A program made the translations under genes and the position numbers. The notes under the pieces are model-generated. The model was not told where the DNA came from. It worked only from the letters and a program-made list of their open reading frames with translations, and searched no databases. Shown here piece after piece: positions 4,344 to 6,330 of a stretch of 26,809 nucleotides of DNA; position 1 is the first letter of the stretch; each line of letters starts with the position of its first letter. Origin of the DNA: a virus; the IMG/VR virus record IMGVR_UViG_3300033571_025807, positions 1-26,809 of that record. The stretch is one strand, 5' to 3'.

Positions 4344-5117
4344 TTAATAGTTGGCGTGCGAGTCAACAAAATTTAGTACTCGTTCTGCTGTTGTTTCACC
4401 GTCTGTGCCGGGGTCTGTTTTTAGCCAGCGAATGAAGTCGTACCATTTTCTTTGTTGGTCTGGACTGTCAAATACGAGTGTGTATTGAACGATTGTTTTT
4501 GAGCCGTTTGCTACAACTGATGGTGCGCCTTGGGTTACCGCCTGATGGGTATCTGTGCCTACTGGTGCGCTTAGCACTGTATCGCCGTTGTCCATTTGCG
4601 TACTGACGGCTTGTGGCTGTAACGGCTGTTCTGTTGCTTCTGGTTGCAGTTGCTGAATGACTGGCGCTTCATATGGGGTGTCGTCTTCTTTGTAGTAGTC
4701 ACCTTCCATTTCCGCTAAGTCAAATTCGTCCCATCCGAGTGCGTCAATGAGGTCGTCGTACTCTTCACCTACTTCTCCAAGTAGTTCAAAAAGCATGTCG
4801 CTATCTGTTGTGCCTAGTTCGTTGGTTCGGTTGTCGGCTAGTGCGTATGCAATGGCACTTGACAGGTCGCCTTCAAATTTGATGCAGGCGATTGTTTCCC
4901 ATCCGAGTTTTTTCGCGGCTTCGTATTGATGGTTTCCCGCAATAATTGTTGATGTTCCGTCACTGTTGTCCTTAATGACAATCGGTTTTACTTGACCGAA
5001 TTCGCGGTACGACGCAACGATTGCATCAATGTTGCCTTTGCGGGGGTTGTTCTCAAGGTGTACAAGTTTTTCTAACGGTGTTGCTAGGTGCTCGATGCTT
5101 TTGTGTATACCTGACAT
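4344..5117 (-). CDS. ParB/Srx-fold protein next to DpdA
   Basis: 257 residues. The N-terminal ~115 residues are a ParB/sulfiredoxin-like domain: LENNPRKGNIDAIVASYREF, then KPIVIK, then the signature IAGNHQYEAAKKLGW (59-73, equivalent to the GxRR box of ParB) and ALADNRTNELGTTDSD (92-107). The central region is acidic and rich in Glu/Gln (about 130-180). The C-terminal ~50 residues contain VFDSPDQQRKWYDFIRWLK. The last residues of DpdA and this ATG abut (TAA-ATG), so the two are translationally coupled. ParB-like domains bind DNA or nucleotide and some are nucleases. Here a sequence-targeting or quality-control role for base modification is an inference from context. Confidence 0.82.
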   Translation of the reverse strand: MSGIHKSIEHLATPLEKLVHLENNPRKGNIDAIVASYREFGQVKPIVIKDNSDGTSTIIAGNHQYEAAKKLGWETIACIKFEGDLSSAIAYALADNRTNELGTTDSDMLFELLGEVGEEYDDLIDALGWDEFDLAEMEGDYYKEDDTPYEAPVIQQLQPEATEQPLQPQAVSTQMDNGDTVLSAPVGTDTHQAVTQGAPSVVANGSKTIVQYTLVFDSPDQQRKWYDFIRWLKTDPGTDGETTAERVLNFVDSHANY

Positions 5118-5774
5118 TTATGTATCTTTCAAGACTGTTGAGAACGGAAGAAGTACATCCACCGTCGCATTTTTTGTTTTTTGAACCATTGATACAAGTT
5201 TCGGGGTGTTCACATCAGGACCGAACGCTAGATATGTTCCGTCTGTTGAATCAACTCCCCATTCTTTTGCTAGCAACATTCTTTTAAAAGAGTTTACCCT
5301 GCCCATGTGTACCCATATGGAACGATCTTTTGCCTCTGAGCAGAATAATCGTGCTTCATCAGAGAGTTTGAATTGTGTAGTCCCCCCGATAAAGAGGCAA
5401 CCCATTGTGTTCCATGGAATTGTTGACATATCCGCTCCGTCTTGCAAGACAAACGCTGGCTTGTATCCAAGTGATGCGACCTGTTGCCAGTACTGATGCC
5501 ACCTTTCAACGGTTTTTATATGGTCTGCTACCACATCTGGAACTGTAGCAAACAAGGATTTTGTTGGGTCTTCAAATCCTTTTAACCAGTTCATCCATAT
5601 TTTTTCATCCCAACGACTTGCGAAACACCCATTGTCAGCAGCCCAGTGCCACGAATGTGGGGAACTGTTGGTATTGCGTTGACTGAACGGGGTTAACATC
5701 AACCCAATGTTGTTGTCATAAAGTTTTTGTTGAAGTTCAGGCTTTGAGGGCAGGCATCCGCTTAGATAAATCAT
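5118..5774 (-). CDS. dpdA: DpdA-like 7-deazaguanine DNA transglycosylase
   Basis: 218 residues from the ATG at 5774; the frame also has a TTG at 5780. It resembles the short phage DpdA proteins, which are DNA-acting relatives of tRNA-guanine transglycosylase (TGT) that swap guanine in DNA for a 7-deazaguanine such as preQ0. Visible landmarks: AADNGCF (46-51) at the position of the TGT DSGGF box, VPDVVAD (78-84), VLQDG (109-113), FIGGTTQFKLS (128-138, equivalent to the substrate-binding GG loop) and HMGRVNSFKR (156-165) followed by GVDSTDGTYL (173-182), a strongly characteristic DpdA block with candidate catalytic aspartates. The start overlaps the end of the YhhQ transporter gene. The upstream transporter supports substrate salvage. 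Confidence 0.85.
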   Translation of the reverse strand: MIYLSGCLPSKPELQQKLYDNNIGLMLTPFSQRNTNSSPHSWHWAADNGCFASRWDEKIWMNWLKGFEDPTKSLFATVPDVVADHIKTVERWHQYWQQVASLGYKPAFVLQDGADMSTIPWNTMGCLFIGGTTQFKLSDEARLFCSEAKDRSIWVHMGRVNSFKRMLLAKEWGVDSTDGTYLAFGPDVNTPKLVSMVQKTKNATVDVLLPFSTVLKDT

Positions 5775-6276
5775 TTGCAATCCATATTAGTAAACCACCA
5801 AGCAGAGCCATTTGGGTTTTACCAATAACCTGTCCTTGCCAGTACATGGTTGAACCGAAAGCAATCTGTAAAAAAATGAATGAGTCAATGAATCCGCCAA
5901 CTATTCCAGATGATACGACAGCGCCAATCAGTGTTTTCTTGCGGAGTTTTGTGTAGACAGCGAAGTCTGCTAGTTCTCCACAGGCAAATGCGATTGCGCT
6001 TGCAGTGGCTACTGCTGGATTGACCGCGTACGACAAGAGGACACCAATAGCAATGGCAATGAGTGTGACCTTGCGTCCATATGTTCTTTGTACGAGGTCA
6101 CGTAGGAATAGTGCTAAGCCAATCATGAGAACACCTGACGGGGCGTTGTAACCAAACCCAACAGGGATTGTGTGTGGACCATCTGGAAAAAATTGTGTTC
6201 CCATGTTTGAAATCATCCAGTTGGCAACAGGGATTGTTGCTAGATAAAGAATAATTAGTGTTGCTTTTTTACTCAT
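5737..6276 (-). CDS. yhhQ: Queuosine-precursor transporter, YhhQ/VUT family
   Basis: 179 residues from the ATG at 6276 (AAGGA ribosome-binding site). An in-frame ATG at 6330 with GGGAG upstream would add 18 hydrophilic residues. It is an integral membrane protein with about five to six hydrophobic segments. Family features: IPVANWMISNM in the first helix, FLRDLVQRTYGRKVTL (the R-D-x-V loop), ACGELADFAVYTKLRKK and GIVGGFIDSFIFLQIAFG. Known members import preQ0/preQ1. Being adjacent to DpdA, it would supply the deazaguanine base from outside the cell. No queC, queD, queE or folE gene is seen in this window, which supports a salvage route. Confidence 0.88.
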   Translation of the reverse strand: MSKKATLIILYLATIPVANWMISNMGTQFFPDGPHTIPVGFGYNAPSGVLMIGLALFLRDLVQRTYGRKVTLIAIAIGVLLSYAVNPAVATASAIAFACGELADFAVYTKLRKKTLIGAVVSSGIVGGFIDSFIFLQIAFGSTMYWQGQVIGKTQMALLGGLLIWIANDLSKRMPALKA

Positions 6277-6330
6277 TGTTGTTCCTTTTTGAGGGTGTGT
6301 ATGGTTTGTGTTGGTTGAATATTGGGTCAT

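Follow-up and report, generated by a model that had tools for sequence, protein, structure and literature searches.

A yhhQ-type transporter gene and a compact DpdA-like gene form a putative swappable salvage cassette beside a resident parB gene in a phage genome fragment

Gene content of the locus

The window analysed here, the whole 26,809-nucleotide stretch of IMG/VR virus record IMGVR_UViG_3300033571_025807 (positions 1 to 26,809), carries three genes in immediate succession on its minus strand, with the overlapping and abutting boundaries that a first-pass annotation had described. The first (5737..6330, minus strand, 197 aa) encodes a putative queuosine-precursor transporter of the yhhQ type (Vut_1/QPTR, COG1738; PF02592). 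It overlaps by 38 bases the second (5118..5774, minus strand, 218 aa), which encodes a compact DpdA-like putative transglycosylase of PHROG 15826. The stop codon of the DpdA-like gene directly abuts the start codon of parB (TAA/ATG), which encodes a protein with a ParB/Srx N-terminal domain (4344..5117, minus strand; ParB_N, PHROG 723). For the DpdA-like gene we take the ATG at 5774 as the start, which relatives share as the same Met; a TTG lies 6 bases earlier, at 5780. All three open reading frames are real genes, with homologues in 89 loci and pN/pS values (∼0.26 for the DpdA-like gene, ∼0.20 for yhhQ and ∼0.13 for parB) that indicate purifying selection on each.

Upstream lie a conserved gene matching PHROG 1389 (6331..6705, minus strand) and a RuvC-like resolvase gene (6668..7195, minus strand; PHROG 159, E 9e-30). 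Two N6/N4 DNA methyltransferase genes are found downstream of parB on the same strand, at 2796..3521 (PF01555, E 5e-43) and 2053..2799 (PF01555, E 9e-42), and the counterpart of the former sits downstream of parB in many relatives that lack an insert between the PHROG 1389 gene and parB. A third N6/N4 DNA methyltransferase gene is encoded on the plus strand at 11720-13105 (PF01555, E 2e-45).

An insertion slot beside parB

Within the lineage of the window, the RuvC gene, the PHROG 1389 gene and parB keep this order, and 46 relatives that lack yhhQ and DpdA have the latter two genes abutting or almost abutting. In two loci, L101 and L104, the upstream gene and parB meet at the same TAA/ATG junction. 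The flanks of L101 are 92-94% identical to the window, which at this junction has 1,213 extra bases: exactly the yhhQ and DpdA-like genes (5118..6330, minus strand), filling the interval between the upstream stop codon and the parB ATG. The slot is occupied in 12 relatives. The yhhQ/DpdA-like pair fills it in three. Seven have a PAPS-reductase-like PP-loop gene there, accompanied in one by the pair and in two by methyltransferase-like sequence; the other occupants are a methyltransferase alone (one relative) and a small ORF (two relatives). In L010, a partial duplicate of the 3' end of the PHROG 1389 gene precedes yhhQ, behind the PAPS-reductase-like gene, and is probably a trace of the arrival of the cassette. 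Overall, these alignments suggest that yhhQ and the DpdA-like gene form a swappable cassette, inserted into a slot whose DNA-modification genes change from one relative to another.

The PAPS-reductase-like PP-loop gene, which may encode another DNA-modification enzyme, was seen in L102 (1939-2757), L109, L110, L117, L128, L158, L001 (5694-6608) and L244 (1069-2151). It directly follows the yhhQ/DpdA-like pair in Rhodococcus phage ReqiPine5 and is flanked by two parB genes in mycobacteriophage Baloo. The Gordonia phages NHagos (L090:1-2473) and Sour (L097) belong to the same genus and have parB as gene 1; behind it, one carries genes for an ABC-ATPase/GNAT fusion and an unidentified protein, and the other DpdA-QueC-QueD-QueE-FolE. 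This appears to be a second example of modification-gene swapping behind parB.

ParB and its genomic company

The parB product matched ParB_N with 31.5 bits (cut-off 26.3), and residues 7-102 of its structural model matched the ParB/Noc N-domain (Z 14.1 over 89 residues). Beyond this domain the model has a linker and ends in a small helical part; no helix-turn-helix or other DNA-reading domain was matched in this model, of which only residues 7-102 gave a match and the rest is of low confidence. A PADLOC search with ParB returned MTase_II only, from a library that may or may not include a DpdB model.

Proteins up to 98% identical to the window ParB are encoded in relatives without yhhQ or DpdA. 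Relatives of this ParB adjoin genes for TET/JBP together with glycosyltransferase, Mom, ABC-GNAT, PAPS-reductase-like and methyltransferase proteins, and in L160-L164 parB abuts a TET gene. Since this ParB is kept where DpdA is missing and also stands next to other modification genes, it appears to be a resident backbone gene next to the slot and not a dedicated partner of DpdA here. ParB is better understood as generally accompanying the DNA-modification genes of phages. In the mechanistic form of this reading, ParB would assist phage DNA-modifying enzymes at large, for example by loading or scanning on DNA via its nucleotide-binding domain, and would serve the resident methyltransferases as well as slot entrants including DpdA. 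A scan restricted to near neighbours included Tet_JBP, TAGT, PAPS_reduct, Mom and DNA_methylase, and 29 of 74 ParB ORFs also carry a methyltransferase PPY motif. ParB-type domains are moreover recurrently found beside CmoX (PMC12783734). However, terminase genes are common neighbours too, so nearness to packaging genes could explain part of the association, and some relatives have no methyltransferase within 5 kb. We therefore regard the accessory role as possible but short of probable; it is compatible with a salvage function of the yhhQ/DpdA-like pair. More doubtful still is a stronger version, in which one resident ParB acts as a general hypermodification adaptor for whichever enzyme fills the slot (DpdA with an imported base, PAPS-reductase-like, methyltransferase, TET/JBP or Mom). 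If true, phages could exchange the modification and keep their targeting or loading factor. ParB-like proteins have been noted in phage DNA modification with their role unexplained (PMC12783734), and a swap slot beside parB makes that role directly testable.

The first-pass annotation had instead proposed that ParB is a specificity factor directing this DpdA to its sites, and had expected dpdA/parB adjacency across phages. The abutting TAA/ATG genes in a single operon would fit this, as would three further loci (L021, L023, L027) in which parB comes just after the compact DpdA-like gene. Adjacency does hold for the longer, actinophage-type DpdA1, with parB adjacent or close in 27 of 28 close loci in either gene order (the exception is cut by a contig end), and in Cellulophaga phage phi47:1 a DpdA1-type gene overlaps the parB gene. 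In bacteria, DpdA has likewise been described with DpdB, a ParB-like ATPase, at its side (PMC12839542), and a ParB-like DpdB partner was suggested for mycobacteriophage CRB2 (PMC6392294). For the compact family, however, the expectation failed: parB is near only 9 of 80 loci, adjacent in 6 of these. The proposal also sits poorly with the 46 relatives that have parB without yhhQ or DpdA, with those whose slot holds a PAPS-reductase-like or methyltransferase gene, with the chemically unrelated enzymes that ParB relatives accompany and with a model confident for the nucleotide-binding ParB domain only. A dedicated specificity role is thus improbable. In some phages or prophages (L182, L184, L186, L188, L189), two or three parB-like genes stand in tandem upstream of DpdA1, and tandem DpdA1 genes were seen in L168 and L189.

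Pairing with yhhQ and absence of synthesis genes

The product of yhhQ matched Pfam Vut_1 (PF02592) with an E-value of 3e-12 and 47.5 bits (cut-off 27.2). As its score against TIGR00697 (42.7 bits) is under the equivalog cut-off of 50.95, we refer to it as yhhQ-type and not as a confirmed queuosine-precursor transporter. Relatives of the DpdA-like protein were collected from 24 phage records, 80 IMG/VR stretches kept of 156 and 35 bacterial genome loci. Of the 89 loci, 70 have a yhhQ gene near the DpdA-like gene, on either side of it and in most cases overlapping or abutting; after clustering at 70% identity, yhhQ is present in 29 of 41 clusters. About 20% of loci have no yhhQ, and many loci are fragments. 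Because the counts include related contigs and the scan favours query-like sequences, these figures show association and not natural frequencies. Among DpdA1 loci, in contrast, yhhQ was found in 1 of 40 and Que synthesis genes are common (Fisher p 2e-17 for the yhhQ association in the compact family versus DpdA1, with loci that are not independent). Pfam searches on 143 neighbours of the pair gave a heterogeneous set with no recurring third partner. The conserved unit is therefore yhhQ plus the DpdA-like gene. In bacteria, QPTR (COG1738) is known to occur fused to TGT (PMC11130926).

The first-pass annotation had further proposed that the phage imports the base instead of making it, having seen no queC/D/E or folE genes. 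Indeed, neither QueC nor FolE was found within the window, a 26.8-kb fragment of the phage. Across records with the DpdA-like family, Vut_1 is present in 45 of 58 and QueC in 6 of 58, and three complete phage genomes (ReqiPine5, Aoka and StevieRay) encode the transporter and neither QueC nor FolE. With yhhQ so frequent and QueC and FolE nearly always missing, import is well supported. Sonali and L038 carry the compact DpdA-like protein alongside DpdA1 and QueC.

Identity of the compact DpdA-like protein

The compact DpdA-like family has a length of ∼200-220 residues. As Pfam and NCBIfam searches gave no match and PHROG 15826 is annotated as 'unknown function', the DpdA-like label, already given in the first-pass annotation, had to come from profile, motif and structure evidence. 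In hhalign the family matched DpdA1 with a probability of 92.7% (E 4e-7) over 91 columns, covering the N-terminal half only; a repeat against 50 DpdA1 sequences gave 88% (E 3e-6). Numbered from the TTG start, the catalytic motifs are D49 (ADNGCF), H158 (VHMGRVN) and D180 (STDG). They are conserved family-wide, with patterns found in 47, 51 and 51 of 51 members, respectively, and ADNGCF, PDVV, QDG, FIGG, WVHMGRVN and SxDG are invariant or nearly so. The three motifs follow the same order in the compact family and DpdA1, with similar spacing (D-to-H ∼111 versus 118, H-to-D ∼18 versus 17); equivalence of the C-terminal motif rests on this order and spacing, as it lies outside the profile match. 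The AF2 model (pLDDT 91.5, pTM 0.87) is barrel-shaped. In a structure search it matched TGT with Z 14.7 over 199 residues and pyruvate kinases with Z 16, and most other matches were unrelated TIM barrels. Since unrelated barrels match as well as TGT, the fold was not used as proof of DpdA identity. Matches among BFVD viral models include annotated phage DpdA proteins.

YhhQ normally supplies tRNA queuosine synthesis. With TGT as the nearest solved functional relative, the pair could thus modify tRNA instead, the DpdA-like protein being a minimal TGT that inserts the imported precursor. However, the TGT zinc motif CxCxxC is absent from all 51 compact members, as it is from DpdA1, no TGT family model in Pfam or NCBIfam matched the protein, and the profile match is to DpdA of the phage, DNA-modifying type, so we consider modification of tRNA unlikely. 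Slightly less likely again is that the protein is not a transglycosylase but some other TIM-barrel enzyme, for example one that releases or alters imported deazaguanines. This would fit the dominance of unrelated barrels in the fold search, and sequence searches of solved structures, run with the protein alone and with the family profile, gave no TGT; against it, the DpdA motif set and its spacing are conserved and DpdA proteins are among the viral-model matches.

Sonali, Seuratvirus phiG7 and L038 each encode the compact DpdA-like protein together with DpdA1, and for this reason we treat the compact family as separate from DpdA1. In Escherichia phage phiG7 (L005:4941-5533), two ORFs next to the gene for DNA polymerase appear to be parts of a split compact gene, and the canonical DpdA is intact; the split gene is possibly a decaying second enzyme. 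Distant chromosomal relatives (L215-L217, L223, L227, L232-L236) occur in Nocardia, Paenibacillus and Planctomycetes, with no yhhQ neighbour.

A putative self-sufficient salvage cassette

We favour, at roughly two chances in three, a model in which yhhQ and the compact DpdA-like gene are a mobile, self-sufficient salvage cassette for 7-deazaguanine DNA modification, with ParB not a dedicated partner. It builds on the gene pairing, the absence of synthesis genes, the catalytic motifs, the fold, the precise insertion and the occurrence of ParB without DpdA, all observed here. By analogy with characterised YhhQ, the phage transporter would supply the infected host from outside with a 7-deazaguanine base, preQ0 or preQ1. 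The compact DpdA-like enzyme would then swap guanines in DNA for this base in a TGT-type reaction, with the aspartate of the STDG motif as predicted nucleophile and that of the ADNGCF motif as the second aspartate. ParB may assist whichever modification enzymes occupy the slot. From known DpdA systems we infer that the modified phage DNA would be shielded from restriction, as demonstrated for other DpdA phages (PMC6884629). Mycobacteriophage Orion has DpdA, no synthesis genes and no modified base (PMC6884629); a DpdA gene thus does not guarantee modification.

A 2019 survey of deazaguanine phages found YhhQ uncorrelated with any phage group and the state of DpdA phages without synthesis genes not predictable (PMC6884629). 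A DpdA-like family with its own importer offers a testable base source for such phages: a scavenged base probably lets the phage disguise its DNA without making one, and importer-dependent modification predicts a dependence on the content of the medium. The pair is also a potential two-gene tool to write 7-deazaguanines into DNA.

Comparison with known systems

The compact DpdA-like protein resembles phage DpdA1 (9g, CAjan, Rosebush-like phages) in its predicted barrel, in the motif order D(S/N)G-x-F, H-x-G, S-x-D-(S/G) and in the presumed exchange of guanine for 7-deazaguanine in DNA. Unlike DpdA1, which has ∼300 residues and QueC/D/E and FolE as partners, the compact family (∼220 residues) is related at the profile level only and is paired with yhhQ; parB seldom accompanies it. 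DpdA2, from Vibrio phage nt-1, is likewise a divergent phage member of the TGT superfamily. In profile comparison, its candidate gene (VPFG_00171, 464 aa) did not match the compact family. DpdA2 reportedly lacks the histidine (PMC6884629), whereas its likely counterpart is invariant in the compact family.

The window transporter belongs to the same Pfam Vut_1 family as the preQ0/preQ1 transporter YhhQ/QPTR (COG1738), but is phage-encoded, stands beside a putative DNA-type transglycosylase and scores under the NCBI equivalog cut-off. As in the DpdA-DpdB pair of the bacterial Dpd island, DpdA here has a ParB-superfamily neighbour; in contrast to that island, no DpdC or restriction genes were seen here, and the window ParB is of a short phage type that is kept in relatives without DpdA. 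ParB of cluster B mycobacteriophages (gene 1) has the same ParB domain and a similar C-terminal region, and adjoins a locus with DpdA1 and QueCDE (PenguinLover67) or a PAPS-reductase-like gene (Baloo). Its position relative to the terminase differs, and in place of the compact DpdA the locus has DpdA1 or a PAPS-reductase-like enzyme.

Other genes in the window

Inspection by eye revealed a gene for a dual-specificity-phosphatase-like protein (16860-17387), overlapped by one for a histone-deacetylase/acetylpolyamine-hydrolase-like protein (17381-18334). A WhiB-like gene, also recognized by eye, lies at 7726-8073 and suggests an actinobacterial host.
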